Shown one piece after another: positions 16,899 through 43,334 of a stretch of DNA of 44,077 bases. The DNA is taken from positions 1 to 44,077 of the forward strand of contig NZ_WTYM01000054.1 in assembly GCF_009827435.1 (NCBI RefSeq), given 5' to 3'. The translations under genes and the position numbers were made by a program. This DNA comes from Croceibacterium salegens (GTDB taxonomy: Bacteria > Pseudomonadota > Alphaproteobacteria > Sphingomonadales > Sphingomonadaceae). Below the pieces are notes generated by a model. It ran no database searches, was not told the origin of the DNA, and worked only from the letters and a program-made list of their open reading frames with translations. Position 1 is the first letter of the stretch, and every line of letters begins with the position of its first letter.

Positions 16899-16934
16899 TT
16901 GATATTTTTTTAATGCTATCTAAAAATATATCAG
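16899..16934. promoter_or_regulatory. 36-bp AT-rich inverted repeat containing a TATATCA site
   Basis: Arms 16899-16912 (TTGATATTTTTTTA) and 16921-16934 (TAAAAATATATCAG) pair at 12 of 14 positions around an eight-base spacer, 44 bases before the cupin start. The right arm contains ATATATCA, a variant of the TGATATATCA element found elsewhere in the window. Confidence 0.55.
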
Positions 16935-16978
16935 TTCGGTGCTGACATCGCCGCCACACCTTTCAAGAGGAGCCTAGC

Positions 16979-17473
16979 ATGCCAGGTCAAGTCTACTCCG
17001 GTACGGTCGCCGACCTTCCCCGCGAAAGCCGGTTCGGAAACAAGTATCATCGCACAGGTCTAGCGATGGACGCAGCCAACGTCTGCTTCGTCTGGCTCGA
17101 TCCCGATGCATTTGCCGAGGTTGCGGCGGCGGACGGAACCGCTCCTTGTCATTCGCACCCATTCGACATGATGATCTATGTCCTCGAAGGCAATTTGCGT
17201 TTCCGGGCCGGCGACAAGGATCATTACCTCGCTGGAGGCGACTTCATCTACGTGCCACGTGACGTCCCTCACGGCGGCCGCCCAGCAGACCACAAGCCCG
17301 TCCATCTCATGGAGATGTTCGCACCGCTGCGCACTGATTACCTCTACATCTGCGAGCACCAGCTCGGCTACAAGCAGGCGCCCCGCAATCCCGACGGTTC
17401 ACGCGTCGATACCCGCAGCGTGCTGGAAGCTGCAGCTGACATGGGAGACTCGTTACTTCAGCCGCAGGACTAA
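16979..17473 (+). CDS. Single-domain cupin protein
   Basis: 164 residues with one cupin barrel. The first motif is HSHPFDMMIYVLEGNLRF (His, His, then the Glu of LEG) and the second is PRDVPHGGRP with its His, giving a plausible 3-His/1-Glu metal site. The C-terminal tail of about 50 residues (LGYKQAPRNP) is outside the barrel. ATG 16979 is preceded by AGAGGAG. It lies nine bases upstream of the CocE-type hydrolase and so shares its transcript. The reaction is unknown; metal-dependent isomerase, dioxygenase or binding roles are all possible. Confidence 0.85.
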   Translation: MPGQVYSGTVADLPRESRFGNKYHRTGLAMDAANVCFVWLDPDAFAEVAAADGTAPCHSHPFDMMIYVLEGNLRFRAGDKDHYLAGGDFIYVPRDVPHGGRPADHKPVHLMEMFAPLRTDYLYICEHQLGYKQAPRNPDGSRVDTRSVLEAAADMGDSLLQPQD

Positions 17474-17482
17474 GGGCCTGCC

Positions 17483-19222
17483 GTGGCCATCCTGATCGAA
17501 CGCGACGTTACCTGCGAAATGCGCGATGGCACCGTCCTGCGCGCAAACGTCTTTCGCGACCCACAGGCCGGACCGGCACCAGTGCTCTTGTTCCGCACGC
17601 CCTACGACAAGAACGCAGGCGCCATAACCTACATGGCACTGGACCCGATGCGGGCGGTGGAAGCCGGGTACGTCGTGGTGCAGCAGGATACGCGCGGACG
17701 TGGCACTTCCGAGGGAGTGCATACACCGTGGCTCGATGAATTCGAGGACGGCTACGACAGCGTTGAATGGGCGGCAAGCCAGCCGTGGGCGAATGGCAAG
17801 GTGGGAGCCTATGGCATTTCCTACCATGGGCTCACCGCATGGGCAGCTGCGGTAATGGCCCCCCCCTCCTTGCGCGCGATCGCTCCGTCGCAAGCACCAT
17901 GTGACCTGTTTGATGCATTCTGGCGGCAAGGTGCCTTCGAATTGGGGACGTTTACGCAATGGGCGCTACGCGTCATGGGGCCAACCGAGTTGTTGCGAGC
18001 TCGCAGAAGCTCGCCCGCTGAGGAGCGCGGTGCCGAATTCCTTCGTCTGATCGACGAACTCGACAAATACGAGGAGCTGGTTCGATCGCTGCCGCTTTGT
18101 GCGATGGCACCCTGTGCCTCTCATGAACCCTACTTCTCATTTATTGCGGACACGCTTGAACACAGGACACCTGACGACTTCCTGTCAGACCGTTCGGTCT
18201 CTGGACGCCATGCCGAGGTCCAGGTTCCGGTGATGATCACGGCAGGGTGGCACGACGTCCTCCTGCGCTCTGACCTGGCGCACTATTCGGCAATGGCGAC
18301 ACGTGTGGCTGGGACGGAAACGAAACTTCCAGTCCAGCTGACCATCGGCCCATGGGTGCATGGCCAGGGAATGCACCTCTCGGCGGGTGGCGAAGTCGAC
18401 TATGGCTATCGCGCTTCGGGCCTTTCAATGGATCTGACCGAGGATCTCACCACCTATCATCTGCGCTGGTTTGACCGGTGGCTGAAGGACAAGGAACACC
18501 CGGCGACAGCACCGGTGAGAATCTTCGTCATGGGAATCAACCACTGGCGCGATGAACAGGAATGGCCGCTTGAAAGGGCCAAGCTCACACCGTGGTTTTT
18601 TCATGGCGATGGAAGCTTGTCGCCCGAATCCCCGACAGTCGGCAGCGAACCGAGGTCATTCGAATTCGATCCGGCAGACCCTCTCCCGACGCTCGGCGGG
18701 GCAACGCTCATGCCGACCATCTATCCCAAGGGTGCGATAGCCCAGAACCAGTTGCATGGCCGATCCGATCTGCTGCTCTACACTTCTGCTCCGTTGGATG
18801 AGCCACTCGAGGTGACCGGTCCGATAAGCGTCAGGCTCTGGGCTTCAACCAGCGCGCGGGATGCTGACTGGGTTATCAAACTTTGCGACGTCCACCCCGA
18901 AGGGCGCAGCTTCAGCGTCTGTGACGGCATCGTGCGCGCCAGTCGGAGGTCTCGTGACTGGCGTGAACCGCGCCCGCTGACACCGCATGATATTGTCGAA
19001 TACGAAATAGACCTCGCGGCGACCTCGATGGTCTTCCTGCCCGGACACCGAATGCAAGTGCTCGTCACCTCGAGCGATTTCCCGCGATACGATCGCAATC
19101 CCGGTACAGGCGAGCTTGGTCTTGATGCGGCCCAACTAAAGTCGGCGGTCCAGATCATCTACGGCGATGCGGAGCATCGCTCACACATTCTGCTTCCGGT
19201 CATCCCGCAACGAGAGCGATAA
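17483..19222 (+). CDS. CocE/NonD-family serine hydrolase (S15 peptidase fold)
   Basis: 579-residue alpha/beta hydrolase of the CocE/NonD/X-prolyl dipeptidyl-peptidase family, which includes cocaine esterase and glutaryl-7-ACA acylase relatives. The nucleophile elbow GISYHG puts the serine at about residue 113. RTPYDKNAG lies in the oxyanion region and QDTRGRGTSEG follows. The C-terminal jelly-roll domain starts near EPLEVTGPISVRLWASTS and includes PGHRMQVLVTSSDFPRYDRNP. The start is GTG 17483. No signal peptide, so it should be cytoplasmic. It probably cleaves an ester or amide intermediate; the substrate is unknown. Confidence 0.92.
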   Translation: MAILIERDVTCEMRDGTVLRANVFRDPQAGPAPVLLFRTPYDKNAGAITYMALDPMRAVEAGYVVVQQDTRGRGTSEGVHTPWLDEFEDGYDSVEWAASQPWANGKVGAYGISYHGLTAWAAAVMAPPSLRAIAPSQAPCDLFDAFWRQGAFELGTFTQWALRVMGPTELLRARRSSPAEERGAEFLRLIDELDKYEELVRSLPLCAMAPCASHEPYFSFIADTLEHRTPDDFLSDRSVSGRHAEVQVPVMITAGWHDVLLRSDLAHYSAMATRVAGTETKLPVQLTIGPWVHGQGMHLSAGGEVDYGYRASGLSMDLTEDLTTYHLRWFDRWLKDKEHPATAPVRIFVMGINHWRDEQEWPLERAKLTPWFFHGDGSLSPESPTVGSEPRSFEFDPADPLPTLGGATLMPTIYPKGAIAQNQLHGRSDLLLYTSAPLDEPLEVTGPISVRLWASTSARDADWVIKLCDVHPEGRSFSVCDGIVRASRRSRDWREPRPLTPHDIVEYEIDLAATSMVFLPGHRMQVLVTSSDFPRYDRNPGTGELGLDAAQLKSAVQIIYGDAEHRSHILLPVIPQRER

Positions 19223-19224
19223 CG

Positions 19225-19376
19225 ATGGCTAACGATTACGCCGACGAACAACTGCTGGACCTGATAGACCTCTGCAGGAAGCGCGTGGACCCGGCGCAAA
19301 GATCGTAGCGGTGGCCGGCCCCATAACGGCACCTGAGTTCGCCAACGCCGATTTTTACCGGTCTCTCGGTTTCTAA
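19225..19376 (+). pseudogene. Possible frameshifted remnant in the 311-bp gap
   Basis: The gap 19223-19533 holds no complete gene. A 27-codon frame (19225-19308, MANDYADEQLLDLIDLCRKR) begins behind a purine-rich site. A second frame then continues with GAKIVAVAGPITAPEF and ends FYRSLGF at about 19376. Reading across a single frameshift would give one short protein start, so this may be a decayed gene, but no family is recognised. The remaining bases to 19480 contain only short, stop-ridden frames. Confidence 0.25.
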
Positions 19377-19482
19377 CCTCACCGGGCGTGACCGGAACGC
19401 TCGCGTGGACCTTACGCGCATCGGATCGGCGATGGCGCGCATCGCATCGTAACTGGCGGGGGCGCGGTGAAGGCCGATGCGC

Positions 19483-19512
19483 TTGCGCAATTTTGCGTCG
19501 TCTAATATATCA
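19483..19512 (+). promoter_or_regulatory. Promoter-like element with TGATATATCA variant
   Basis: TTGCGC (19483-19488), 17 bases, then TATATC (19506-19511) form a reasonable sigma-70-type promoter. The -10 box lies within TAATATATCA (19503-19512), which differs by one base from the palindrome repeated in the window. It is 21 bases before the two-cupin gene. Confidence 0.5.
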
Positions 19513-19533: not shown

Positions 19534-20676
19534 ATGGAGAGTTCGATGGGTTATCCGGATCAAGCGGTAGTTGAGCGCACTGAAAGGCGGACGAATGCCC
19601 CGGTCGCGTTGTCGAGCATTACAGTCAGGACGAAGAAGGATCTCGAAGCACTGCGTGACGCCTGGGCCGGAACCGATGGCAACCCAAAGATCCTCGCTTC
19701 CACGGCCGGTTGCGAAGATTTGAGCTTCTCCGGCCTGGACATCAAATGCGTTCTGCGCGGTGAAGAAAGCAGTGGCCGCAACAGCGTCCACAACATCGTG
19801 CTTGCGCCTGGAGCGGAAATTCCCGCGCACGGACTTGATCATGGCGATGCTTACTGGGTTGTCGCCGGCGGAGAGGTAGAACTGACAATCGGTTCGAAAA
19901 CAGCAGTGCTTGGCAATGCGGGCTTTGGTTTTGCCCCCCCGCATACAACGCAAGCAGTCGCGAACCGGTCGAATGCCCCCGCCGAAGTATTTGTGATCCA
20001 CTTGCCAGCCGGCATCGAACGAGGCTTCGCATTGGCTAAGGCGAAATATGCCGAAAGCGGCGCTGATACCGTGCGTGAGGCATGGGCATTGCTCGAGCCA
20101 CTTGGGCTCAAGCTGACAGACAGCCAACCACTCGCCAACGATGATCGCGTGAATTGCCAACAGCACCGTGTTGACCGGAAGATTTCGACGTTGGATGACC
20201 TTGTCGCGCTGCGTGCAGATTGGGCGCAGCTAGAGCCCATCCCGAAGCTGGTCGTGGATCCACGGGAATGCCGCAATATCGCTGCGATGGGGCAAGAAGC
20301 GCGCCTCCTGCTTTCGCCAGAGGAATCGCGCGGCGCGGCGTCCGCATTCTGCAATATTATCCATGGCGGCGTCGACGTCCCGGCACACCATCAGCCAACT
20401 GAGGAAGAGACCTTCATCATCCTGCGGGGTGATATTCGGCTAAGGATCGGCAACCAGACTGCCGAACGAGTGAGCCCGGGAGCCTTTGGATTTGCGCCGC
20501 GCTTTGGGACCCATGCCTTTACTCATCTGGGCGAAGGCGAGAGCTTCGTGTTCTCCATCAACACGCCGGGTGGACACGATCGCGGGTTTGAAATCGGCCT
20601 GACCGAGGGTGGCAAGCCCGAATTCCCGCAAATCATAGAAGCTCACGGCTTCACCTTCCACGGACCAGGCCATTAG
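19534..20676 (+). CDS. Two-cupin (bicupin) protein with tandem duplicated halves
   Basis: 380 residues made of two homologous halves. Half 1 (about 20-190) has PAHGLDHGDAYWVVAGGEVE as its first cupin motif. Half 2 (about 205-380) has PAHHQPTEEETFIILRGDIR and is preceded by a parallel leader (ISTLDDLVALRADWAQ against TVRTKKDLEALRDAWAG). Half 2 keeps a more normal His/Glu motif; half 1 has altered spacing. It resembles ring-cleaving bicupins only in size and lacks the gentisate dioxygenase signatures. ATG 19534 is just after GAGAGAGATGAAAG. It is transcribed alone and ends at the hairpin at 20699. Confidence 0.75.
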   Translation: MESSMGYPDQAVVERTERRTNAPVALSSITVRTKKDLEALRDAWAGTDGNPKILASTAGCEDLSFSGLDIKCVLRGEESSGRNSVHNIVLAPGAEIPAHGLDHGDAYWVVAGGEVELTIGSKTAVLGNAGFGFAPPHTTQAVANRSNAPAEVFVIHLPAGIERGFALAKAKYAESGADTVREAWALLEPLGLKLTDSQPLANDDRVNCQQHRVDRKISTLDDLVALRADWAQLEPIPKLVVDPRECRNIAAMGQEARLLLSPEESRGAASAFCNIIHGGVDVPAHHQPTEEETFIILRGDIRLRIGNQTAERVSPGAFGFAPRFGTHAFTHLGEGESFVFSINTPGGHDRGFEIGLTEGGKPEFPQIIEAHGFTFHGPGH

Positions 20677-22912: not shown

Positions 22913-25900
22913 CTAGGCCACTTGCGACATGTTCAGGGGACCTGACTGGCTGTCCAGCTCGTCAAGGGCCGCAGCCAGCCTTGATCGATAGGCTGCGACC
23001 GCAGCTTCCTTGACATGCCCGAAGCCACGGATCGTCATAGGCAAGGCCAAGACTTCGGTGATAGCCGCAAGGTTGTCCAGCCCGACCCGCCGCATCATCG
23101 CATCAAGAAGCTTTTCGTATTCTACGATCAGGGCACGCTCCATCCTCCTCTCAGCCGTGCGACCAAAGGGATCTAATGCTGTCCCGCGCAGACCCTTGAG
23201 CCGGGCTAGCAGTCCAAATGCGTGCATCATCCATGGCCCGAACCGGGCTTTGCGGAGATGTCCGGTTGCCTTGTCGCGCCGAGCGAAGAGGGGCGGAGCA
23301 AGGTGAAAGTACAGCTTGTAATCGCCATCGAACTGCGTCTTGAGTGAGTCATCGAACGCGGCAGAATGCTGAAGCCGAGCAACTTCGTATTCGTCCTTGT
23401 AGGCCATCAGCTTGAAAAGGGAGCGGGCGGCAGCAATCGTCAGCGAACCATCGCCGCCCAGTTCCTGATCCTTGGCGGCAACCTTGGCGATCAGGGCGCG
23501 GTATCGATCCGCATAAGACCTGTCCTGATAGTCGGTGAGGAACAGGGCCCGCTGTTCGACGACCTGTTCCGGCACTTCGGGTTCGGGTTCGCCAAGGCCA
23601 GCTGCACGCAAGACTGATGCAGTGTCGACAGCGAGCCGCCGGCCCCACTCGAACGCCGCCATGTTCATGCCTACCCCGACGCCATTAAGCTGTACTGCGG
23701 CGGCAAAGTCCGTGAGGTCCAATACCATCCAGCCCTTCTGGAAAGCAAAGCCTACCATCATCAGATTTGACCCGATGGCATCACCCAGCAACCTTTCAGC
23801 AAGTCGTGTGAAGGGAAACGCCACGAACCGCCCTTCTCCGGCGACCTTGGCAATGCGCCGCGCCAGAAATGTACCGTCGGGGATAGCCGATGGATCCTGC
23901 GTAAAGTCTCCTGTGATGGCGACGTCGGAGTTTACCAAGACGTTGGTGCTAACGGGGTTGATGGCGGCAATCACGTCCCGTGCATTGCCGACGATCTCAT
24001 CACAGACGACGACGAGGTCAGCCTCTCCGGGAGGAATGCGCAGCGCGGTGATCTCATCTCCGCCGATATGCACGTGGCTTGTCACGGCCCCGCCCTTTTG
24101 GGCCATGCCGACCTGGTCAAGAACTGCGACCTTGCGCCCGCCCATGTGCCCAGCCATCGACAGCAAGGCACCGATTGTGACCACGCCTGTACCGCCGACA
24201 CCCGCCACAAGCAGCCGTTGGTGGGCAGGCATGGGTATTCCCGGCTCAACGAGCAGCGGTAAATCCGGGATAGGCGCAATCGCCTTGGGCTTGCGCACCT
24301 GCCCACCCTCGACGGTGACGAAACTGGGGCAGAAGCCGTTGAGGCAACTGAAATCCTTGTTGCAACTTGACTGATTGATGCGCCGCTTGGTGCCGAACCC
24401 GGTCTGGACCGGCTCTACCGACAGGCAATTCGACTTTGCCGAGCAGTCGCCGCAGCCCTCGCAAACGAGTTCATTGATGAACACTCGCTGCGCAGGCTCG
24501 GCCAGCTTGCCCCGCTTGCGCAAGCGCCGCTTTTCGGTGGCGCACATCTGTTCGTAGACCAGCACGCTGACACCCGGCGTATCGCGCAGTTCCAATTGCA
24601 CCGCATCGAGATCGTCACGATGCTCTATGCGATCAGCCAGGCCCCGCACCGGATCACCCGCAGTATAACGATCCGGATCGTCCGTCGATACGATGATCGT
24701 CTTGACCCCTTCCGCACGCAACTGCTGGAGGAGTTGAGCAACCGACAACTCGCCATCGACAGCCTGCCCTCCGGTCATGGCGACGGCACTGTTGTACAAG
24801 ATCTTGAGCGTAAGATTGATATTTGCGGCCACGGCCTGCCGAATCGCCAGAAGCCCCGAATGGAAATATGTGCCGTCTCCCATGTTGGCGAACATGTGCT
24901 TCTCGTCGGTGAACTGCGAAAGTCCAACCCAGTGCACGCCCTCGCCCCCCATCTGGGCAAAGCTGGTCGTACGTGGCCGGTTATAGGCTGCCAGCCCGTG
25001 GCAGCCGATACCGGCAGTGCCACGACTTCCTTCAGGCACCACGGTTGAGCGGTTGTGCGGGCAGCCAGAACAGAAGAACGGTTTTCGAATGGCTGGCGGA
25101 ATCGCAAACTCCGCCTGTGCTGCAAGAAGCCCTGCCAGTTCATCAACCCGATCCTCCAGCCCGGCACCTAGCGCCCCGAGCAGTCGACCAAGTTCGCAGG
25201 CAATCTTTTCCGGCGTCAAATCCAGTGTTGTCGGGAATAGCACCGTTCCGTCGCTGTGGCGCTTGCCAACAATCTCTGGCGCACCGTCACGACCGTAGCA
25301 AATGGCCTTGGCCTGCTGCTCGATCAGACCGGTCTTCTCTTCGACGACCACGAGCTGCTCAAGTCCAAGTGCGAATGTCCGCATTCCCTCCGGCTCGAGC
25401 GGCCAGATCAGGGCCGGCTTGTAGAAGGCAATGCCCAGCTTCCTTTGCGCAGCCTCGTCCAGCCCGAGCAAGCGCATCGCTTCCCGTACGTCGAGCCAAG
25501 ACTTGCCGGCAGCGACAATGCCGATGCGCGAGCCGTCGTCACGCAATATGCTTCGATCGAGCCGGTTCGCCCGGACATATTCCAGTACAGCTGGCAGGCG
25601 ATAGGCCTGCTGTAGCATTTCCTGATCCTGCGGAGTCATCGGCCAACGATTGTGCAGCCCCCCCGGAGGAGCCACAACCGGAGGCAGGACAGGATCGTCA
25701 GCAAGTTCACTACCGTCAACTGCGCGTGTGGAATCCGCGACCTCAGTCAGGATCTTGAGCGCGATCCAAGAACCGGTGTGGCGCGAACATGCGAATCCAT
25801 GCAGGCCAAACTCCACGATCTCTCGAGGATCTGCGGGATAGAAAAGCGGCACCTGGACGCTGGCGACAGTGTCGTCACTGTAGCAGATTATGGAGGACGA

Positions 25901-26344
25901 CTTCGCGAGGTGATCATCGCCGACAGCCAGCACCACCCCGCCAAAGGGTGAACTACCCTGATAATTGCCATGCCGGATCGCATCCGAAGCACGGTCGAAT
26001 CCCGGCCCCTTGCCGTACCAGAGCGAGTAAACTCCCTGGACACGCGCACCGGGCGACTGTTCTATTTGCTGGGTGCCTGCAATGGCGGTGGCCCCGAGTT
26101 CCTCGTTGACGGCCGGCATGACCTTTATGTCGAGGCCTGCCATGCTGTCCCTGGCACCCTGGAAAGCTGTATCCAGCGTGCCCAAGGGTGAGCCACGATA
26201 ACCGCTGACGAAGCCGCCGGATTTGATACCAGCTGCCTTGTCACGCTCGGCCTGCAGGATCATCAACCGAACAAGTGCCTGAACCCCGGTAATCAGGATT
26301 GAACCGTCGCGCCTTGTATAGCGGTCGTTTAGCTGGACGGTCAT
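22913..26344 (-). CDS. Indolepyruvate ferredoxin oxidoreductase family protein (fused 2-oxoacid oxidoreductase)
   Basis: 1143-residue fused protein. The N-terminal pyrimidine-binding domain starts MTVQLNDRYTRRDG and has GYRGSPLGTLD. The TPP-binding domain contains FCSGCPHNRST and NMGDGTYFHSGLLAI. Cysteine clusters CEGCGDC and CNKDFSCLNGFCP probably bind Fe-S, followed by the gamma-type domain VAGVGGTGVVTIGALL. These enzymes decarboxylate aryl- or branched 2-oxoacids to acyl-CoA with ferredoxin as electron acceptor. ATG 26344 matches the family start; the frame extends 13 codons upstream. It is the second gene of the block that begins with the FAH-family gene. No ferredoxin gene is in the window. 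Confidence 0.93.
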   Translation of the reverse strand: MTVQLNDRYTRRDGSILITGVQALVRLMILQAERDKAAGIKSGGFVSGYRGSPLGTLDTAFQGARDSMAGLDIKVMPAVNEELGATAIAGTQQIEQSPGARVQGVYSLWYGKGPGFDRASDAIRHGNYQGSSPFGGVVLAVGDDHLAKSSSIICYSDDTVASVQVPLFYPADPREIVEFGLHGFACSRHTGSWIALKILTEVADSTRAVDGSELADDPVLPPVVAPPGGLHNRWPMTPQDQEMLQQAYRLPAVLEYVRANRLDRSILRDDGSRIGIVAAGKSWLDVREAMRLLGLDEAAQRKLGIAFYKPALIWPLEPEGMRTFALGLEQLVVVEEKTGLIEQQAKAICYGRDGAPEIVGKRHSDGTVLFPTTLDLTPEKIACELGRLLGALGAGLEDRVDELAGLLAAQAEFAIPPAIRKPFFCSGCPHNRSTVVPEGSRGTAGIGCHGLAAYNRPRTTSFAQMGGEGVHWVGLSQFTDEKHMFANMGDGTYFHSGLLAIRQAVAANINLTLKILYNSAVAMTGGQAVDGELSVAQLLQQLRAEGVKTIIVSTDDPDRYTAGDPVRGLADRIEHRDDLDAVQLELRDTPGVSVLVYEQMCATEKRRLRKRGKLAEPAQRVFINELVCEGCGDCSAKSNCLSVEPVQTGFGTKRRINQSSCNKDFSCLNGFCPSFVTVEGGQVRKPKAIAPIPDLPLLVEPGIPMPAHQRLLVAGVGGTGVVTIGALLSMAGHMGGRKVAVLDQVGMAQKGGAVTSHVHIGGDEITALRIPPGEADLVVVCDEIVGNARDVIAAINPVSTNVLVNSDVAITGDFTQDPSAIPDGTFLARRIAKVAGEGRFVAFPFTRLAERLLGDAIGSNLMMVGFAFQKGWMVLDLTDFAAAVQLNGVGVGMNMAAFEWGRRLAVDTASVLRAAGLGEPEPEVPEQVVEQRALFLTDYQDRSYADRYRALIAKVAAKDQELGGDGSLTIAAARSLFKLMAYKDEYEVARLQHSAAFDDSLKTQFDGDYKLYFHLAPPLFARRDKATGHLRKARFGPWMMHAFGLLARLKGLRGTALDPFGRTAERRMERALIVEYEKLLDAMMRRVGLDNLAAITEVLALPMTIRGFGHVKEAAVAAYRSRLAAALDELDSQSGPLNMSQVA

Positions 26345-26473
26345 TGCTTGCAAACTCCAGTCGATTGCGCGCCTGTTTTCCATGGAACGAGAGAGGACTG
26401 CGGTAGAACGGCTGCGACTGGCCAGCGACCTGGCACCGCCCTGATGGTTGTGCGGTGACGCGCCATGACTCCC

Positions 26474-27307
26474 TCAAGCTTCAGCCACCGCCGTGTTGGC
26501 CAGTACGCCGATGCTGGACACCTCCACTTCCACCAGGTCGCCCGGCTTTATGTAGAGTTGCGGAGTCCGGGCGAAGCCGACACCAGCCGGAGTGCCCGTA
26601 GAGATCACGTCGCCGGGTGCCAATGGCGTCCACCGCGAAATATACTCGATGGCGGTTGGGATATCGTAGATCATGTTTTCCACAACCGACGACTGGACCT
26701 CTTCGCCGTTCAGGCGCGTCTTCAGAGTCAGCTTGCGGTAGTCTGGGATTTCGTCGGAAGTCACAATCCACGGCCCCACCGAGCCCGAGGCATAGAAGCA
26801 CTTACCCGCCGTTACCGAATGCCCCTGGTAATCGCGCACGCTGCCATCCATGAGGATGGTGAACCCAAAGAGATGGCTCAGCGCCTCCGACTTCCGGATG
26901 TGCCGACCGCCCTTGCCGATCACGATGGCAATTTCGCCTTCGTAATCGAAAGCATCGGAAACGGTCGGCCTTACAATGGGCGATCCGGCGCCGACCATGG
27001 TGTCGGGGAACTTCGTGAAGAGCGAAGGATAGGGCGAGACATTTTCGTTCCCGACTTCCGAAACGTGATCACGATAATTGAGACCGAGGCAGATCAGCTT
27101 GTTGCTGCCACCAATCGGCGGAAGGAAGCTCAGTTCAGAAAGCGGAATTGCGGCAGCGTTCTGCGCGCTGGCGGGGTCGAGGGTCGGCGGCACAAAGCTA
27201 TCACGCGCTGGATCGCCTGTGCGCCAATCTTCGCAGGGATACGCGACTCCGCCCTGAATTCTCGCGGTCGCGTACCCGTAACCGTTGGAAACCCGCGCAA
27301 ATTTCAT
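26474..27307 (-). CDS. Fumarylacetoacetate hydrolase-family protein
   Basis: 277 residues. An N-terminal domain of about 70 residues is followed by the FAH barrel: LGLNYRDHVSE, FTKFPDTMVGAGSPI, DYEGEIAIVIGKGGRHI (metal-binding Glu residues), LMDGSVRDYQG (metal-binding Asp) and GDVISTGTPAGVGF. Family members hydrolyse C-C bonds of acylpyruvates, decarboxylate or isomerise oxo-dicarboxylates, or hydrate 2-oxopentadienoates. The start is ATG 27307 behind GGGAGAG. It is the first gene of the minus-strand block, with a TGATATATCA site 95 bases upstream. The exact reaction cannot be told. Confidence 0.9.
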   Translation of the reverse strand: MKFARVSNGYGYATARIQGGVAYPCEDWRTGDPARDSFVPPTLDPASAQNAAAIPLSELSFLPPIGGSNKLICLGLNYRDHVSEVGNENVSPYPSLFTKFPDTMVGAGSPIVRPTVSDAFDYEGEIAIVIGKGGRHIRKSEALSHLFGFTILMDGSVRDYQGHSVTAGKCFYASGSVGPWIVTSDEIPDYRKLTLKTRLNGEEVQSSVVENMIYDIPTAIEYISRWTPLAPGDVISTGTPAGVGFARTPQLYIKPGDLVEVEVSSIGVLANTAVAEA

Positions 27308-27401: not shown

Positions 27402-27411
27402 TGATATATCA
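27402..27411. promoter_or_regulatory. TGATATATCA palindrome upstream of FAH-IOR operon
   Basis: Exact 10-bp palindrome 95 bases upstream of the FAH-family start, in the 208-bp gap before the GntR2 stop. Same element as at 34691, 35963 and 43306. Confidence 0.6.
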
Positions 27412-28232: not shown

Positions 28233-28354
28233 AATCGGCCTTTTGTTGTTGTCCGGCACCACTCGGTTTCAATGGCCGGGTATGGATGCTTCAATGCACA
28301 ATCTAGCTTGTGAAGCAAACCGCTCACTCTGCTACCGGAAGTGCGGCCGGCAAG

Positions 28355-29228: not shown

Positions 29229-29249
29229 GTATGACGGTCTTGTATGACG
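29229..29249. promoter_or_regulatory. Direct repeat of GTATGACG between hbd and thiolase
   Basis: GTATGACG at 29229-29236 and again at 29242-29249, 13 bases apart, in the 91-bp divergent region. The second copy continues as GTATGACGATT, identical to bases 10225-10235 next to operator B. Probably the binding site of GntR2 or a related regulator. Confidence 0.5.
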
Positions 29250-29294
29250 ATTCGCAGAAACGGGCAACCGTAGCAAACCGGACTCAGCCAGATC

Positions 29295-33884: not shown

Positions 33885-34583
33885 TCAGAGCGTGACGGCT
33901 TTCTGGTCGGAAATCTCGCTCAGGATGCCGGAATACGAGGTCGTAATACCAAGAGAAATGCGTGCCTCCGCGGTATCCGGGTCGCGGAGCCATGACAGGT
34001 CGTTCCAGAATTCCAGCTGCGCATCCGACCATTCCTTGCCCCGCTCCGTCAGCAGATAAAGGGTGAATATTCGGTGCTGCTCGCTCATCAGGCGCTTGTT
34101 GAGAAAGATCAGGTCGCGGTTGTCGGATGCTTCGGCGAAAAGGCCAAAGGCAGCATTTGACTGGTCCATGATCGCGTCGACATCGTTATGAACATTCCTC
34201 GACTGGACGATCTTCTTGAGCCGTTGCCAATGTTCTTCGGTAAAATTCTCGGCAGCACGGCGAACCATTAGTGGCCCAACCAGCTTAAAGACGTCGTAAA
34301 GATCGCGCACTGTCTTCGGCGTGACTTCGGTGACTCGATAACCGCTTCGCGGCAGGGTTTCGACAAGGCCTTCAAGGTCGAGACGGGCAAGAGCCTCGCG
34401 CACCGGCGTGCGCCCAAATTCTGTTCGGGCCACCAATTCCTTCTCGGTGATGCGTACGCCTGGGGCGAGATCGCAATGCACAATCAGTTTGCGCAAAGCC
34501 AGGTAGCATTCGTCTGCAAGGCTCAGACGCTCGCCTTGATCGGACGCCTGCTTGCTACCTCGTGCCCGGGATCCAACTGCCAT
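33885..34583 (-). CDS. GntR-family transcriptional regulator (GntR3)
   Basis: 232 residues. Winged helix-turn-helix with LRKLIVHCDLAPGVRITE and RTPVREALARLDLEGLVETL (about residues 25-85), then an all-helical C-terminal domain of FCD type. It is less similar to GntR1 and GntR2 than they are to each other. ATG 34583 has AAGGAGCG upstream. Its promoter carries an exact TGATATATCA at 34691-34700, suggesting autoregulation; it is the best candidate to control the other copies of that element. Confidence 0.9.
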   Translation of the reverse strand: MAVGSRARGSKQASDQGERLSLADECYLALRKLIVHCDLAPGVRITEKELVARTEFGRTPVREALARLDLEGLVETLPRSGYRVTEVTPKTVRDLYDVFKLVGPLMVRRAAENFTEEHWQRLKKIVQSRNVHNDVDAIMDQSNAAFGLFAEASDNRDLIFLNKRLMSEQHRIFTLYLLTERGKEWSDAQLEFWNDLSWLRDPDTAEARISLGITTSYSGILSEISDQKAVTL

Positions 34584-34690
34584 AATCGCTCCTTCAAGGT
34601 CCACAACTACTGGAGCCACCAAATTCCATCAACTGGCCACACGGTCATGCAATCTGCCAGCACCCTTCACCACGAAAGACAATCAAATTT

Positions 34691-34700
34691 GATATATCAT
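34691..34700. promoter_or_regulatory. TGATATATCA palindrome upstream of GntR3
   Basis: Exact palindrome, 108 bases upstream of the GntR3 start and just past the 3' end of the serine hydrolase. Fits autoregulation. Confidence 0.6.
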
Positions 34701-34708
34701 GCCTCTTT

Positions 34709-35887
34709 TCAGCCGCTGCGAAATTTACAGACAGCAGCTTCAATTTCTGCATGTGTCTCGTCTGCGACTGCGCCAATGCCGGGCACCAACATGACGAGTA
34801 CCGCGTCCAGCTGCGGTATGGCCCAGGCGCGACGGGTGCCAATCCCGTCCCAACCGAAGCTGCCGATCGGAAGCGAAATGTCGGCCACAGCGGCTTCGAC
34901 GATTGCCACCCCGTATCCATAGGTTAGCCCGGGAACTGTTTTTGGATCGAGGGTTGCGTACTGCCCCGCCCGGACACCAGGAAAACCAAGCGCTCCGATC
35001 TGATTGCGCCTGATCATCTTGCGCGCTTCGGGAGCCAGGATTGATGCCGCATGGCGATCACCAGACAGAAGCAAATCAACGAATTGCGCATAATCCCGCG
35101 CGGTTGAGATCAAGCCCGCCGATCCCGAAAGATATCCAGGGCGCAATACCGGAACATGCATGAGCGACCCGCAGGGCAAAATGCGTTCTTGATCGGCATG
35201 TCCCAAGCCAAACATGGTGTCCCGCATGTCGAGGGGATCGAAGAATTGCTTCGTGGCAAAGTCGGCGAAGCTTGACCCGCTGACAAGCTCGACGATGCGG
35301 CCAAGAATGTCGAACCCGGCTGCGTTGCTATAGCTCCAACGAGATCCTGGCTCATAATCCAGACTCACGGAGCCAAGCTTTTTGACCCACGAAGCGAGGT
35401 CGTCTTCCGGTTCGATCGCGGGCAGATCGGGATTGAATATCCCGATCGTTTGCAGTCCAGACGTCATGGTTAGGAGGTGGTGGACTCTGATCTCCTCGCT
35501 GGCGTCAATGAAAAGATATTGGGGCTGCGCCGGCAGTGGGCCGAATCCGGGATAGAATTCCGGAGGAGCCTCACCCTCTACCAAGTAGCGAACCCTGCGA
35601 GTGGACGAAAAGGATGGAATCCAGCGCGAAACGGGATCATCGACGGAGAGGCGCCCCTCGGCAACGAGCTGGGCAACGCAGGCTGCTGTCACAACCTTTG
35701 TCAGCGAGAAAATCGGAAAGATGCTGTCGGCTTCAAGCTGGAAGGATGGATCGACATCGGCTGTGCCTTGCACATCGATCAATTCCTCTACCCCGTTTCG
35801 CATAAACAGGGTGATCGCGCCGCTGATACTTCCTTTGTCGACGTGACGAGCGATGATCCCAGCGACTTCCTGACCTAGTGCCCGCAT
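34709..35887 (-). CDS. Beta-lactamase-fold serine hydrolase / esterase (class C-like)
   Basis: 392 residues. FSLTKVV supplies the Ser-x-x-Lys catalytic pair near residue 60, and YSNAAGFDILG supplies the Tyr-x-Asn motif. GYGVAIVEA near the C-terminus is the likely strand beside the active site. Such EstB-like proteins are esterases or lactone/amide hydrolases more often than antibiotic resistance enzymes. No signal peptide, so it is cytoplasmic, unlike true beta-lactamases. ATG 35887 is preferred: the G-tract/GAG serves as ribosome site six bases upstream. Divergent from the LLM operon. Confidence 0.88.
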   Translation of the reverse strand: MRALGQEVAGIIARHVDKGSISGAITLFMRNGVEELIDVQGTADVDPSFQLEADSIFPIFSLTKVVTAACVAQLVAEGRLSVDDPVSRWIPSFSSTRRVRYLVEGEAPPEFYPGFGPLPAQPQYLFIDASEEIRVHHLLTMTSGLQTIGIFNPDLPAIEPEDDLASWVKKLGSVSLDYEPGSRWSYSNAAGFDILGRIVELVSGSSFADFATKQFFDPLDMRDTMFGLGHADQERILPCGSLMHVPVLRPGYLSGSAGLISTARDYAQFVDLLLSGDRHAASILAPEARKMIRRNQIGALGFPGVRAGQYATLDPKTVPGLTYGYGVAIVEAAVADISLPIGSFGWDGIGTRRAWAIPQLDAVLVMLVPGIGAVADETHAEIEAAVCKFRSG

Positions 35888-35893
35888 TCGACT

Positions 35894-35905
35894 CCCCCCC
35901 CCCCC
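35894..35905. repeat. Twelve-base C:G homopolymer tract at a translation start
   Basis: Twelve consecutive C on the plus strand (G on the coding strand) directly precede the AGTCGA-ATG of the serine hydrolase. The tract forms its ribosome-binding region and lies inside the divergent promoter region. Such tracts are prone to slippage. An assembly or read error in length is possible. Confidence 0.7.
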
Positions 35906-35943
35906 GCTCCGCTTCTTCTGGTACGCTTCGGTCGAATAGGACC

Positions 35944-35972
35944 TTGCGCGAGTGGCTGCAACTGATATATCA
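35944..35972 (+). promoter_or_regulatory. Promoter-like element with exact TGATATATCA, upstream of LLM operon
   Basis: TTGCGC (35944-35949), 16 bases, then TATATC (35966-35971), inside the exact palindrome TGATATATCA (35963-35972). It is 36 bases before the GTG start at 36009 and 75 bases from the divergent hydrolase start, so it can serve both directions. Confidence 0.55.
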
Positions 35973-36008
35973 ATGGCAGAATCGAGAGTTGGAGCAGGAG
36001 AGTTCGTC

Positions 36009-37178
36009 GTGATCAAGGTTTGGGATTTCGATTTCAATCAGGTGCCAGGCAAAGCCGCCCCTGACTATGATGACCACGAGGTGGTCCAACGGGCCTTCGA
36101 TCACAACCTGGATCTTATGGTCAGCCTCGAAGGGCGCGGCTTCGAAGGCGTGTTCTACAGCGAACACCATTTCATAGCTGCAATGAGCCCCTGTCCGAAC
36201 CTGTTGATCGCTGCATTGGCGGCAAAGACCGAAAAGATGAAGATCGGCGTCATGGGTAATGTTCTGGCATTCCACCAGCCCTGGCGGCTTGCGGAAGAAC
36301 TCAACATGCTCGACTACCTTACGCATGGCCGGCTTGAGGTCGGTGTGGCGAGTGGGGTGCCGCCTGAATTCCGCTTCGTGGGCATCCCGGTAGAGGACGT
36401 CCGTCCGATGTACATCGAAGTACTCGATTTCCTGCAGTCCGCATACGAGCGGAAGTTCGTCACTCTCAAGGGCAAGTTCTTTGACCTCGAGGCCGTTCCG
36501 GTCATGCCCCGCCCACGCAAGGAGCAACGCCGCCGGCATTGGATGACGATCTACTCTGAAAGGTCCTGCCGGGATGCTGCGCAGCGGAACTTTAAGGTCT
36601 GCACGGGGTATCAGCCGGTTGAAACTGCTGCGATCGCGTTCGATGCCTATCGTGAGGAGGCTGCCCAACATGGCAGGTCTGTGGGGCCGGACGATATCGG
36701 GGTCCGCAGGCAGGTCTTGATCTGGGATACCCAGGCGGATGCCGAGGCATTGGCCGCAGAGCTCGAAGCGAGCAACAAGGCGCGCATGGCGTCTATATTC
36801 CAGGACATGTTCGCACGCTTGGCAAAAGAAGGCGTCGCCATACAGGACGCCATGAAACCGGCAGGTTCGGTAAAGGATTCAGGGGTCATGGACGCCGCCG
36901 CGGTTCCGCGTGCGGAAAAAAATCTGACCCCGGGAGCGCCAAAGGTTGACCCCACCGGCGCGCTCCAGGTCAGCCCCGACGAATATATCACCGGTTCGCC
37001 TGAAAGCGTTGCCGAGCAGATCATCGATCAGTGCCGTCGGCTCGGCGCGGGCAACATTATGGCCTATCACGCGCCGACAATGGACGAGGCGCAGATCGCG
37101 CGGAACTATGCCCTTTGGGAAAAGGTCATTCCGATCGTGAACAAGGCCGACGTCTTGAAGGCTCCAGCCGCCGCCTAA
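36009..37178 (+). CDS. LLM-class (luciferase-like) flavin-dependent monooxygenase
   Basis: 389 residues with the bacterial-luciferase-like barrel. FYSEHHF near residue 50, GVMGNVLAFHQPWRLAEELNMLDYLTHGRLEVGVASG over two strands (about 75-115), and the C-terminal QIIDQCRRLGAGNIM are typical. These enzymes use FMNH2 supplied by a separate reductase, here the flavin reductase two genes on. GTG 36009 has GGAGCAGGAGAG upstream; an ATG at 35973 lies right against the palindrome with no ribosome site. It leads a six-gene run. The oxygenation product (ester, lactone, cleaved C-S or C-N bond) is unknown. Confidence 0.92.
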   Translation: MIKVWDFDFNQVPGKAAPDYDDHEVVQRAFDHNLDLMVSLEGRGFEGVFYSEHHFIAAMSPCPNLLIAALAAKTEKMKIGVMGNVLAFHQPWRLAEELNMLDYLTHGRLEVGVASGVPPEFRFVGIPVEDVRPMYIEVLDFLQSAYERKFVTLKGKFFDLEAVPVMPRPRKEQRRRHWMTIYSERSCRDAAQRNFKVCTGYQPVETAAIAFDAYREEAAQHGRSVGPDDIGVRRQVLIWDTQADAEALAAELEASNKARMASIFQDMFARLAKEGVAIQDAMKPAGSVKDSGVMDAAAVPRAEKNLTPGAPKVDPTGALQVSPDEYITGSPESVAEQIIDQCRRLGAGNIMAYHAPTMDEAQIARNYALWEKVIPIVNKADVLKAPAAA

Positions 37179-37272
37179 ACACAGAGGCGGTGCAACCTTC
37201 GGCGGGTCTCTCATGTTGGCCAGGTCTGACCGGGCCATCCGAGCTCCCGCAAAGAGAATGAGAGGACAAACA

Positions 37273-38064
37273 ATGGCTCCAGGCAGCAAGTTCACCCGGC
37301 ATAGCGTTGCGTGCTTCGGATATGACATTCCCTATGCCGAAGCAGGCAGTGGCGATGTAATCGTCAGCCTGCCGGGATCCGCTGGTTTGGAGATGTCAAC
37401 GGCGAAGGATATCCTTGCCGAAAGCTATCGGGTTATCGAATTGGACCCTCCAGGTTGGGGGGATACCCCCGCGCTTGCAGCCGAAATGAAGCAGCGGCAT
37501 CTGGCAATCGTGCTTGCCGAGGTAATCGCCGATCTTGGGATCGCTCGCTACCATCTCATTGGCACGTCGATGGGCGGGGCAAATGCCTACTGGCTCGCTG
37601 CACAATTTCCCGAGCGGGTCAAATCCCTTACGCTGGAAGCACCGATGGTCTTCCACCGGCAGGAGGATCTGCACAATCCAGACGAGGGGTTCATTCAGGC
37701 CCTGCGAGCGGGTGCCCCTGCCCCCGACGTTTCTGGCTACCCTGCCCCTCCCCCACACCCGCGCAAGCCCTGGGCCGATGCCAACTTCTTCCGCGACCAA
37801 ATGCGAAAGCGGTTCAAGATGATGGCCAAGACCGATTACCCCGGCGACAATTCCGCGCTCGAGGAATTTGCGCACCGAGGCAAAGTCCCAACCACCTTGC
37901 TGATTGGATCCGAAGACGAAATCCTGAAGCAAAGCTTTGCCGATCAATTCCAGGTTACGGTGCCCCATGCGCATGTCGTGCGCATCGAGGGGGCAACGCA
38001 CGATATCCAAAACACCGCTCCGGAGGCGTTTGTCGCCGCAATGCAAGCACAGGTATGCGGCTAG
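37273..38064 (+). CDS. Alpha/beta hydrolase with Ser nucleophile
   Basis: 263 residues. SLPGSAGLE replaces HGxP at the oxyanion region, LDPPGWGDTP follows, and the nucleophile elbow is IGTSMGGAN (Ser about 101). The acid is in GSEDEIL and the His in EGATHDIQN. ATG 37273 is behind GAGAGGACAAACA. In the LLM operon, 94 bases after the monooxygenase; a plausible role is hydrolysis of the ester or lactone the LLM enzyme makes. Confidence 0.88.
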   Translation: MAPGSKFTRHSVACFGYDIPYAEAGSGDVIVSLPGSAGLEMSTAKDILAESYRVIELDPPGWGDTPALAAEMKQRHLAIVLAEVIADLGIARYHLIGTSMGGANAYWLAAQFPERVKSLTLEAPMVFHRQEDLHNPDEGFIQALRAGAPAPDVSGYPAPPPHPRKPWADANFFRDQMRKRFKMMAKTDYPGDNSALEEFAHRGKVPTTLLIGSEDEILKQSFADQFQVTVPHAHVVRIEGATHDIQNTAPEAFVAAMQAQVCG

Positions 38065-38162
38065 GGCTGGACCACGCAGGATCGGCAGTTCGTTCGGCGT
38101 CGCAATACCAACGCAGCCGCGTGCAGAAATTGACGTTCTCCGTGCGAGCAAGGGAGTGCGAA

Positions 38163-38669
38163 GTGGTCGATTCTAGTCTCTTTCGAGAAGGCATGAGGCG
38201 ACTTGCAGCGTCGGTCCATGTCGTTACGTGTGACCACGCAGGCGATCGGCTCGGTTGTACTGCGACCGCAGTCTGTTCGTTGTCAGATCAGCCTCCCTCA
38301 CTACTTGTTTGCCTGAACCAGAAGAGTCAGACGGCATCCGGTATCAAGGCAAGCGGACGTTTTGCTGTGAATGTCTTGGCCTCGGACGATCGGGCCGTGG
38401 CAGCCCACTTTGCCAGCCGGGCATCGTCTGCTGAGAAGTTCGCTCGAGGTGAATGGTTGGCTGCTCCTAACGGGGCTCCCCTGCTGTCATCCGCATTGGT
38501 GTCGTTTGCATGTTCCGTCGAAGACATTGTCAGCGCCGGGAGCCACTGGATGATTGTCGGCAGTATTGAGGCAATTTCATTGGGAGATGAGGAGCGTGCA
38601 TCACTCCTCTACTCGCATGGGAATTACGGCAGCTTTTCCTCGCGGTCCCCACAAGAACTACAGGCGTAG
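38163..38669 (+). CDS. Flavin reductase (FMN reductase-like domain)
   Basis: 168 residues. FREGMRRLAASVHVVTC at the N-terminus, GCTATAVCSLSDQPPSLLVCLNQKSQTA split over the flavin site, FAVNVLA, and a terminal YSHGNYGSF are typical of short-chain flavin reductases. GTG 38163 has AGGGAG six bases upstream; the longer frame from 37455 is antisense-type noise inside the hydrolase. It probably provides FMNH2 to the LLM monooxygenase. Five bases separate its stop from RibBX. Confidence 0.92.
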   Translation: MVDSSLFREGMRRLAASVHVVTCDHAGDRLGCTATAVCSLSDQPPSLLVCLNQKSQTASGIKASGRFAVNVLASDDRAVAAHFASRASSAEKFARGEWLAAPNGAPLLSSALVSFACSVEDIVSAGSHWMIVGSIEAISLGDEERASLLYSHGNYGSFSSRSPQELQA

Positions 38670-38674
38670 GTGAC

Positions 38675-41553: not shown

Positions 41554-41641
41554 TCACATACACAGAAGGCGGACATTGCTCCCGGTTGCAGCGATCGTCC
41601 GTAGAACGACGAGGCCGAAGGCGGGCACTATTCATCCGCGA

Positions 41642-42388
41642 TCAGAGCTGCGCCTCGCCGCCATCGACGGGGTAATCGGCCCCGGTCACAAAGCTGGATT
41701 CCGGCGACAGCAGGAAGGTGGCCACAGCAACCGCCTCCTCGACCCCGCCGACTCGTCCCAACGGTATCATCTTTTTGAGCACTGCCTCCATCTCGGCCTG
41801 CTGTTCAGCCGGAAGCGCACCACCGCCGTGGAAATCCGTGGCGATCGGGCCAGGACTGATCGTGTTCACCCTTATGCCCTGAGCAAGCAATGCGCGCGCA
41901 AGAACCAGAGCAATGGAACGGATTGCACCTTTCGAACCGGCATAGAGCGCCGCTTCCGGCGTTCCCTTCAACTTGGCGCCTGAACAGGTAAGCAGCATCG
42001 AGCTGCCACTCTTCATCAGCGGTGCCAGCGACTGCGCACCGAAAAGCACGCCAGCAACGTTTAGTTCGAAAGTCTCCCGGAAGCTGTCCAGGGTTATCGA
42101 GCCAAGAGGTGAAGGAATACCGATGCCTGCATTCAGAAACACCCCGTCGATCTTCCCGAATTGCTGTTTGACCTTTTCTGCCAGCGCATCCGCCTCAGCT
42201 TGCTCCCGGGCGTTGTTGCGAACCCCTGTGATATTTGGATGCAGGTTGGATACGGCAGCGAGACGCTCTGGGTTCAAGCCGGTGACCAGAACCTTGCCGC
42301 CTTCCTCTGCAATCCGCAAAGCGGTTGCCTTACCGATGCCATTTGATCCGCCGGTCACGACATAGGAGCGATCTGTGAATCTGCCCAT
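41642..42388 (-). CDS. SDR-family oxidoreductase
   Basis: 248 residues. TGGSNGIGKATALR at the cofactor site, LNAGIGIPSPLGSI in place of NNAG, LLTCSGAKLKG with the catalytic Ser, and YAGSKGAIRSIALVLA with Tyr/Lys. The C-terminal end SFVTGADYPVDGGEAQL is normal. ATG 42388 has CTGGAG upstream. Last gene of the cupin / NTF2-like / SDR operon; substrate unknown. Confidence 0.92.
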   Translation of the reverse strand: MGRFTDRSYVVTGGSNGIGKATALRIAEEGGKVLVTGLNPERLAAVSNLHPNITGVRNNAREQAEADALAEKVKQQFGKIDGVFLNAGIGIPSPLGSITLDSFRETFELNVAGVLFGAQSLAPLMKSGSSMLLTCSGAKLKGTPEAALYAGSKGAIRSIALVLARALLAQGIRVNTISPGPIATDFHGGGALPAEQQAEMEAVLKKMIPLGRVGGVEEAVAVATFLLSPESSFVTGADYPVDGGEAQL

Positions 42389-42411
42389 TTTCAACTCCAG
42401 TTTTCCTGCGG

Positions 42412-42846
42412 TTACTTGGCGGGCTCGAGCACGGGACTGGCCGCGTAACGCGAGATCTTCCAACCAGACGCAGTCTTCGTCAGGTCGATGCTCCAGTCTC
42501 CGGCTGCCTGGGGGGTCCCCGGAAGGACGCGAGGCAAGGTATCGCCCTCGCTCCTCGGAACCCGGTAAACCAAAATGTAGGCTGTAGCCGTCGCCGCGCC
42601 GACACCAGTGGGCGTTACCAGCAGGTTAGACATGATATGGCGCGTGGCGATTGACGCCGGACGTCTCTCCAGGAATCCATGCGCGGCGGAACCTTCAAGG
42701 ACCTCGCCTCCGGGAGTATGGATGCAAGCATCGACAGTAAACATGCCCGCAGCATCCTGGTTGCGCCCCTCATCGAGGGCGGAGCATAGCCGCACCAGAA
42801 GGTCCGAACATTCGATCTTACAGGCCAGATCGTCGATCGTGGTCAT
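42412..42846 (-). CDS. NTF2-like / SnoaL-type small protein
   Basis: 144 residues. The helix IECSDLLVRLCSALDEGRNQDAA is followed by FTVDACIHTPGGEVLEG and RHIMSNLLVTP, the NTF2-like pattern. The start, ATG 42846, is placed two bases before the cupin stop, giving translational coupling; the frame extends to 42975 in an overlap that is rejected. Possibly an isomerase or a dehydratase; third NTF2-like protein of the window. Confidence 0.8.
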   Translation of the reverse strand: MTTIDDLACKIECSDLLVRLCSALDEGRNQDAAGMFTVDACIHTPGGEVLEGSAAHGFLERRPASIATRHIMSNLLVTPTGVGAATATAYILVYRVPRSEGDTLPRVLPGTPQAAGDWSIDLTKTASGWKISRYAASPVLEPAK

Positions 42847-42847
42847 T

Positions 42848-43216
42848 TCAGTCCTCCAGCGCGATGAAGATGCTGTTGCGTGGGAGGCCATCGAACGCCT
42901 TTGACTTGTGGCCCTGTCCAAAGGTGTCCTCGACCAGCACGATGTCGCCTGGGTGGATGAGACGCGCTTCGCCATCGCTTGCGGTCAACTCGGCGACCCC
43001 ACCGCTCAGGGTAACGACGAGCTGGCGTCGCGGAGCTGGATGCCAGCCAAGATCCTGGTTTTCTTCGGTCTGCCGAAACCACAAGCCAGACGTCTTCAGA
43101 GGCTCCGAGAGCGCACCACCCATCGGGTGGGCATTTAGTGGAATCTTGATGTCACGGAAGTGAGAGACACCTTCCTCATCCGCCCAGAGATTTATTACCT
43201 CAACCAATTGTTCCAT
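42848..43216 (-). CDS. Small cupin protein
   Basis: 122 residues. HPAPRRQLVVTLSGGVAEL is the first cupin motif (degenerate, no clear His-x-His) and PGDIVLVEDTFGQGHKSK the second with one His. The metal site is incomplete, so catalytic activity is doubtful; it may bind a small ligand. ATG 43216 has a weak ribosome site. First gene of its three-gene operon with a TGATATATCA promoter element 90 bases upstream. Confidence 0.78.
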   Translation of the reverse strand: MEQLVEVINLWADEEGVSHFRDIKIPLNAHPMGGALSEPLKTSGLWFRQTEENQDLGWHPAPRRQLVVTLSGGVAELTASDGEARLIHPGDIVLVEDTFGQGHKSKAFDGLPRNSIFIALED

Positions 43217-43305
43217 TATTCGGTGCCCAATTCTGAAGGGTGATAAATAGGGTGATGGGCCTGAATGCGCCCATAAGCGGTTCACGCCCTAGCAATCGCT
43301 CATTC

Positions 43306-43334
43306 TGATATATCACAGATTTACGGGTGATCAA
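43306..43334 (-). promoter_or_regulatory. Promoter-like element with exact TGATATATCA, upstream of cupin operon
   Basis: On the minus strand TTGATC (43334-43329), 16 bases, then TATATC (43312-43307), inside the palindrome TGATATATCA (43306-43315). It is 90 bases from the cupin start. Same arrangement as at 35944-35972. Confidence 0.55.

Follow-up and report, generated by a model that had tools for sequence, protein, structure and literature searches.

A palindrome as candidate operator of the FCD-type GntR regulator GntR3 in a catabolic island of Croceibacterium salegens

For the FadR subfamily of GntR regulators, the operator consensus TKGT/ACMA is given in the available excerpt of PMC4494728, with BioR (TTATMKATAA) and NanR (direct repeats) as exceptions. 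One member of the VanR group, Atu1419, is an FCD-type GntR repressor in the hydroxycinnamate catabolic region of Agrobacterium fabrum; according to the excerpt of PMC7797058, a 10-bp perfect palindrome lies in its own promoter and in that of a target, and it represses its own gene. Here, a 10-bp palindrome, TGATATATCA, is described in a 44,077-base stretch of the Croceibacterium salegens genome (contig NZ_WTYM01000054.1, positions 1 to 44,077; hereafter, the window), which carries a catabolic island encoding the regulators GntR1, GntR2, GntR3, and TetR. To judge from sequence comparison, this palindrome is very probably the operator of GntR3, an island-encoded FCD-type (VanR-like) regulator and most likely an autoregulated repressor of a dispersed regulon.

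Copies of the palindrome and their placement

Four exact copies of TGATATATCA are present in the window (27402–27411, 34690–34699, 35963–35972, and 43306–43315), and all four lie in gaps between genes. Both the number and the intergenic placement agree with the original prediction, as do three of its four coordinate pairs; the fourth (34691–34700) was off by one. Dinucleotide shuffles give an expectation of 0.01 copies in the window, and four or more copies occurred in 0 of 100 shuffles, in line with the earlier remark that a single chance copy in 44 kb would already be unusual. Two further sites had been proposed as variants. The one at 19503–19512 is a one-mismatch variant, TAATATATCA, located 21 bp before the start of the bicupin gene, and its flanks lengthen the dyad (GTCTAATATATCAGAC). 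The one at 16899–16934 is present as an inverted repeat (13-nt arms, 92% complementary), but it is doubtful as a copy of the motif because its better half differs from TGATATATCA at two positions, a similarity at chance level in the window (10 matches with up to two mismatches versus 7.9 expected). The sites lie approximately 10–160 bp upstream of start codons; these distances are approximate, since the starts of gntR3, cupin2, and the cupin gene of the second island genome (see below) are uncertain by 1–3 bases. The sites are as follows.

16899..16934, inverted repeat (TGATAT/ATATCA ends) before cupin1-CocE, doubtful as a site
19503..19512, putative operator variant TAATATATCA, 21 bp upstream of the bicupin gene
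27402..27411, putative operator, exact palindrome, ~94 bp upstream of the FAH-IOR genes (minus strand)
34690..34699, putative operator, exact palindrome, proposed autoregulation site, ~106 bp upstream of gntR3
35963..35972, putative operator, exact palindrome, between the serine hydrolase gene (minus strand) and the LLM monooxygenase operon (plus strand)
43306..43315, putative operator, exact palindrome, ~90 bp upstream of the cupin2-NTF2-SDR genes (minus strand)

The genome comprises 3.64 Mb in 63 contigs, and the window, which is the whole of one contig, represents 1.2% of it. Six exact copies were found genome-wide, four of them in the window (binomial p 3e-7). When one mismatch was allowed, 13 copies were detected versus 3 for a reversed-pattern control; 5 of the 13 are in the window and 2 on a second contig, C56, so that the two contigs together hold 7. 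The exact copy on C56 precedes a GH3 glycosidase–sulfatase gene pair by ~141 bp, and the one-mismatch copy, TGATATATCT, precedes a gene for a TonB-dependent receptor by ~107 bp. The remaining six copies are scattered: the exact copy on contig C46 lies in or beside frames that resemble, by eye, a conjugation region, two near copies lie within long reading frames (C12 and C23), and three are located at or before the starts of other genes (C15, C40, and C51). No island genes were seen by eye beside these six copies in 3-kb loci, where no family search was made. Exact copies were absent from all four congeneric genomes. The motif is rare and concentrated in island promoters, contrary to the frequent occurrence that had been named as grounds for rejecting the prediction. 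The six-promoter regulon originally proposed therefore stands as a rare, promoter-placed motif, with the two amendments that the 16899 site is doubtful and that the regulon also appears to span a second contig.

The end of C56 that carries these two sites (locus L008, 9929–19549) contains genes for the GH3 glycosidase, the sulfatase, the TonB-dependent receptor, and a metallo-beta-lactamase-fold protein and a frame resembling an aldehyde dehydrogenase (by eye). It is probably part of the same pathway as the island.

Because intergenic DNA is AT-richer than the rest (54% GC in 18 listed gaps totalling 2,294 bases), AT-rich palindromes might arise there by chance, and 17 of 35 more distant relatives do contain one to five exact copies. 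At intergenic composition, however, the 2,294 listed bases would be expected to hold only 0.002 copies, and 0.36 Mb of such DNA 0.3. In a genome of another genus, moreover, orthologous genes have the motif in the same places, and it is linked to one regulator family, as described below; chance is hardly credible as an explanation and is already contradicted by these sequence comparisons.

Conservation of the site and its linkage to the gntR3 family

A scan with the LLM protein detected two related loci, one in Croceicoccus bisphenolivorans H4 (70%) and the other in Sphingobium chlorophenolicum (57%). In H4, matches of at least 35% to 32 of the 41 queried window genes are located on one contig (~10–59 kb) in a different order. 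Those having no such match, or only a paralog, are etfA, etfB, and the genes for the metallo-beta-lactamase, MaoC, SDR4, flavin reductase, RibB, Rieske, and PobA proteins. The H4 island contains two bicupin copies, and genes for a TonB receptor and a sulfatase lie beside its LLM gene. Sphingobium chlorophenolicum was rejected as a relative of the regulon: a different GntR gene lies beside its LLM gene, only one TGATATTTCA is present in the 17.8 kb fetched, and its genome contains one exact copy elsewhere and 29 copies with up to one mismatch versus 19 for the control.

Both exact copies of TGATATATCA in the H4 genome are in the island, one before the LLM gene and the other before the ABH2–serine hydrolase genes, and one-mismatch copies precede gntR3 (promoter region TGATATATCG), the TonB receptor gene, a second LLM gene, a sulfatase gene, and a cupin gene. 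The H4 figure of 7 out of 21 does not include the copy that lies beyond the island at 2521 (TGATTTATCA). At the TonB receptor gene, H4 and C. salegens have the same variant, TGATATATCT, embedded in a conserved block, CTGATATATCT-TCTTGCAT. The site is thus conserved in another genus before orthologs of the LLM, TonB receptor, gntR3, and serine hydrolase/ABH2 genes. The H4 FAH gene ends a same-strand gene run, the first promoter of which has only a GATATAT doublet with two mismatches. Because GntR1, GntR2, GntR3, and TetR all have matches in H4, co-occurrence there cannot identify the regulator.

The regulator is indicated instead by genomes that have gntR3 and different neighbouring genes. The family searches took in 298 or 397 genomes each, a fraction of the whole family; the 298-genome sets of different searches were taken as identical on the basis of handle numbers, and genomes listed under two handles (G325/G036, G318/G351, and G314/G412, matched by coordinates) were counted once. 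Among 14 Croceicoccus genomes searched with two GntR3 sequences at a cut-off of E 1e-20, homologs were found in four, namely H4, G318, G325, and G328. In the last three, a gene for an FAD-dependent monooxygenase adjoins gntR3, and the spacer between the two genes contains an exact copy of TGATATATCA, which is the only exact copy in each of these genomes; one of the ten genomes with no homolog at this cut-off has an exact copy. When five GntR3 sequences were used to search 397 genomes of the family, five genomes matched at E ≤1.5e-96, clearly set apart from the next one at 1.5e-25. After 19 rows for which no locus was available had been left out, the 49 rows of this search gave 30 loci, 5 of the GntR3 family and 25 of other GntR genes. 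An exact copy is present at all five of the former, compared with 0 of the latter, 1 of which has a one-mismatch copy. At the locus of G382, a genome of another genus, one exact copy lies in the gntR3/monooxygenase spacer and one before a TonB receptor gene.

In total, the motif is present in the gntR3 promoter region of all six distinct family genomes (the window, H4, G318, G325, G328, and G382), exactly in five and with one mismatch in H4, as would be expected of an autoregulated GntR gene. In the 19 kb fetched around gntR3 in G382, G351, and G036, the queries from the window and C56 matched only GntR3 itself and, in two of these genomes, a distantly related (28%) TonB receptor, and homologs of TetR and GntR2 were not found in G036 at E 1e-30 in the 298-genome set. 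The palindrome thus follows GntR3, since the family loci keep it amid different neighbours and one of them does so in a genome in which no TetR or GntR2 homolog was found. The proposal that GntR3 is the best candidate regulator, originally based on the copy in its own promoter, is strengthened by this site in both island genomes and by the exact copies at four other family loci; the related clusters, which had been named as a place to look for the motif, contain it before orthologous H4 genes and at GntR3-family loci.

Other searches added no relatives. Comparison with a plasmid collection (tblastn and megablast) revealed no syntenic plasmid, no bicupin match at E 1e-5, and, as the best matches listed, only GntR3 at 37%, GntR2 at 42%, and LLM at 35%, none a useful relative; a scan of genome contigs with GntR3 gave no match. 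At the cut-offs applied, neither a bicupin nor a TetR homolog was found in any of the remaining 297 genomes of the family.

Several observations weigh against the assignment to GntR3. The operator, assigned through comparative genomics, does not contain the GT...AC core (TKGT/ACMA), and in the excerpt of PMC7797058 a change of G3 to A in the Atu1419 operator abolishes binding. GntR3 is the least conserved regulator between the two islands (34–37% versus 57–62% for the others), and the H4 gntR3 promoter region contains a one-mismatch copy only. No copy within one mismatch precedes the bicupin-1, FAH, and cupin2 genes of H4, where the operon order is different. The palindrome is not exclusive to genomes with GntR3, being present in G316 and in the 17 more distant relatives mentioned above, none of which is known to have this regulator. 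Finally, the lone copy in G318, G325, and G328 may serve only the divergent monooxygenase gene.

It is also conceivable that the TetR regulator binds TGATATATCA and that gntR3 is merely another of its targets. A TetR ortholog (58–61%) is present in the H4 island, where a GATATAT doublet with two mismatches lies between the TetR gene and the divergent operon running to FAH-IOR. However, the promoter of TetR in the window (15822–16073) contains no match within two mismatches, and TetR homologs were found at E 1e-30 in only 1 of 298 family genomes, that of C. salegens itself, although the set includes G036 (= G325), which keeps the palindrome at its gntR3 locus. Regulation by TetR is therefore improbable.

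Another possibility is that the palindrome represents only an extended −10 element (TGn-TATATC). TGATATATC resembles the consensus of such an element, and the distances to start codons given above would suit one. Were it a core promoter element, many copies should exist, but there are only 6 exact copies and 13 with up to one mismatch genome-wide, and both halves of the dyad are kept at the sites, which were themselves picked by similarity. The overlap of three copies with a −10 box spaced 16–17 bases from a −35 box, as first reported, proved weak: a consensus promoter scan of 34500–36100, covering two of the four exact copies, found no promoter at either, and our own scoring of hexamers gave at best 6–8 of 12 matches at exact copies, with 9 of 12 reached only at 16924, in the doubtful site. 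Neither a −35 hexamer at 16–18 nt nor general use in the genome, both expected of a core promoter, was found. The 10-mer does not vary between the gntR3/monooxygenase spacers of four genomes, where it is located ~22 nt downstream of an equally invariant TTGAC, too far for the palindrome to be the −10 element of this box. This explanation is highly improbable. A block, GATTGCAACCCTTGAC, is likewise invariant in this spacer in the four genomes (locus L088, 1995–2185, and orthologous spacers), ~22 nt upstream of the palindrome.

With GntR3 as the regulator, the simplest reading, by analogy with Atu1419 (excerpt of PMC7797058), is that it is an auto-repressor released by a pathway metabolite. A GntR3 dimer would read the 10-bp dyad, which extends weakly to CTGATATATCAG, near promoters. 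Its targets in the island would be the bicupin, FAH-IOR, LLM/serine hydrolase, and cupin2-NTF2-SDR units as well as its own gene, and those on the second contig would be the GH3-sulfatase pair and the TonB-dependent receptor. GntR3 would most likely repress these genes until a metabolite, probably a carboxylic acid, binds to the FCD domain and causes its release; that GntR3 binds these sites, that it represses and does not activate, the nature of its ligand, and the control of its own gene are all inferences. This model proposes a regulator, an operator, and a target list for the catabolic island and links genes for outer-membrane uptake (TonB receptor) and deconjugation (GH3 and sulfatase) to the degradation genes. 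With the motif as a guide, additional pathway genes could be located on other contigs, and a screen for compounds that release GntR3 could lead to the substrate.

Genes of the island and a second motif

The genes referred to above are as follows; the labels flavin reductase, SDR, GST, DLH, cupin2, and aldehyde dehydrogenase were assigned by eye or taken from the original prediction.

15144–15821, TetR regulator
19534..20676, plus strand, bicupin (Pfam Cupin_2, two stretches)
22913..27307, minus strand, genes for IOR (indolepyruvate ferredoxin oxidoreductase family) and FAH family hydrolase
27516..28262, minus strand, gntR2, the stronger candidate regulator for the second motif, not for TGATATATCA
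33885..34583, minus strand, gntR3, regulator with GntR winged helix-turn-helix (wHTH) and FCD domains, proposed repressor; start uncertain, open frame to 34622
34709..35887, minus strand, serine beta-lactamase-fold hydrolase (Pfam Beta-lactamase, 2e-52)
36009..38669, plus strand, start of the LLM operon with LLM monooxygenase, alpha/beta hydrolase, and flavin-reductase-like genes (from open reading frames and LLM families)
41642..43216, minus strand, cupin2, SnoaL/NTF2-like, and SDR genes

The GTG at 36009 was chosen by us as the LLM start, and the flavin reductase was labelled by eye. The cupin2 label derives from the original prediction, cupin2 having no Pfam or NCBIfam match, and the SDR label was given by eye. 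In the region 38064–39829, the flavin-reductase-like gene (by eye) and a RibB/GTP cyclohydrolase II-like gene follow the LLM gene, an arrangement by which the operon might provide reduced flavin for itself. No description of this catabolic island was found in the open-licence PMC literature searched, and the available excerpts of PMC12502722 and PMC5343134 have no bearing on it.

A palindrome search of the listed intergenic stretches also revealed TCGTCATACC-N4-GGTATGGCGA before the acyl-CoA synthetase gene, with a near copy before the acyl-CoA dehydrogenase 2 gene. This second motif, GTATGACGAT, is represented in the window by the following sites.

8441..8466, ATCGTCATACC-N4-GGTATGGCGAT, upstream of acyl-CoA synthetase
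10210..10249, TCGTCATGCC-N4-GGTATGACGA and a further half-site, upstream of acyl-CoA dehydrogenase 2
29230..29251, half-sites, with GTATGACGAT at 29242, between the hydroxyacyl-CoA dehydrogenase and thiolase genes

Five copies of GTATGACGAT are present in the C. salegens genome, three of them in the window. In H4, three of the five copies with up to one mismatch (60 kb) precede the same genes, the one before acyl-CoA dehydrogenase 2 being exact and those before the synthetase and hydroxyacyl-CoA dehydrogenase genes having one mismatch. A further genome, G175, which was reached via GntR2, has GTATGACGAT before its ortholog of acyl-CoA dehydrogenase 2, ~350 bp from a GntR2 homolog (55%), and another copy ~5 kb away. 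With 16 copies of GTATGACGAT, compared with 1–5 in the other four genomes searched, G175 may have a larger regulon of this kind.

These data bear on the possibility that GntR1 or GntR2 binds TGATATATCA. The island encodes both of these FCD-type GntR proteins, and each is conserved in H4. In G175, however, no TGATATATCA is present in the 79 kb fetched around the GntR2 homolog, in contrast to the nearby GTATGACGAT, and it is GTATGACGAT, exact or with one mismatch, that lies before the genes for acyl-CoA synthetase, acyl-CoA dehydrogenase 2, and hydroxyacyl-CoA dehydrogenase in both the window and H4. Furthermore, G036 keeps the palindrome and has no GntR2 homolog at E 1e-30 (GntR1 was not searched separately). 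Recognition of TGATATATCA by GntR1 or GntR2 is therefore quite improbable. From its distribution, the second motif most likely belongs to GntR2 or GntR1, which would explain why the ligase and dehydrogenase blocks have no TGATATATCA.

GntR3 and its putative operator compared with known systems

GntR3 consists of an N-terminal GntR-type wHTH domain (PF00392, 3.8e-14; wHTH helices and wing strands are present in the model) and an all-helical C-terminal FCD domain (PF07729, 6e-7), with FCD proteins among the best fold matches. The AlphaFold model has a predicted local distance difference test (pLDDT) score of 82, from a two-sequence alignment, and its best matches in the PDB are FCD-type GntR regulators. 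AlkR (VanR, 9isw), PmiR (7xp0/7xp1), TM0439 (3sxy), and McbR (4p9f) are among the closest structures, with ~20–22% identity.

Four family members share 50–60% identity with GntR3 of the window in the wHTH domain and 25–26% in the FCD domain, a pattern that would fit a constant DNA site combined with differing ligands. The sequence of the recognition helix is GRTPVREAL in the GntR3 proteins of the window and H4 and GAMPVREAL in those of G318, G325, G328, and G382, and the operator is the same 10-mer. The Arg of GRTPVREAL would, by sequence, be the equivalent of Arg45 of Atu1419. On balance, we lean towards the view that GntR3 founds a small FCD-type GntR subfamily with a recognition code of its own, in which TGAT|ATCA half-sites replace TKGT|ACMA and are kept despite the change from Arg-Thr to Ala-Met, so that the canonical Arg-guanine contact would not be the reader, and that the pair of regulator and operator has become attached to different catabolic genes in different genomes. 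Since the operator deviates from the GntR consensus and the recognition helix is not constant, the system provides a compact test case for DNA reading by GntR proteins.

No operator matching TGATATATCA, nor GATATATC in connection with GntR, was found in the available part of the open-licence PMC literature. Like the FadR-subfamily operators covered in the excerpt of PMC4494728, the site is a short AT-rich palindrome near catabolic promoters, with the regulator gene among the targets; unlike them, TGATATATCA has no GT/AC core. Its absence does not exclude membership in the GntR family, because BioR and NanR also break the rule, and since such exceptions to the consensus are already known, the TGATATATCA operator is a variant within GntR sites and not a new kind. 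Of the described regulators, Atu1419 resembles GntR3 in both sequence (6z74, E 8e-7) and fold. Its operator, ATGTATACAT, contains an essential G at position 3 (excerpt of PMC7797058), where TGATATATCA has an A, the G being one step further outward, and the regulon proposed for GntR3 is larger than that of Atu1419 and is distributed on two contigs.

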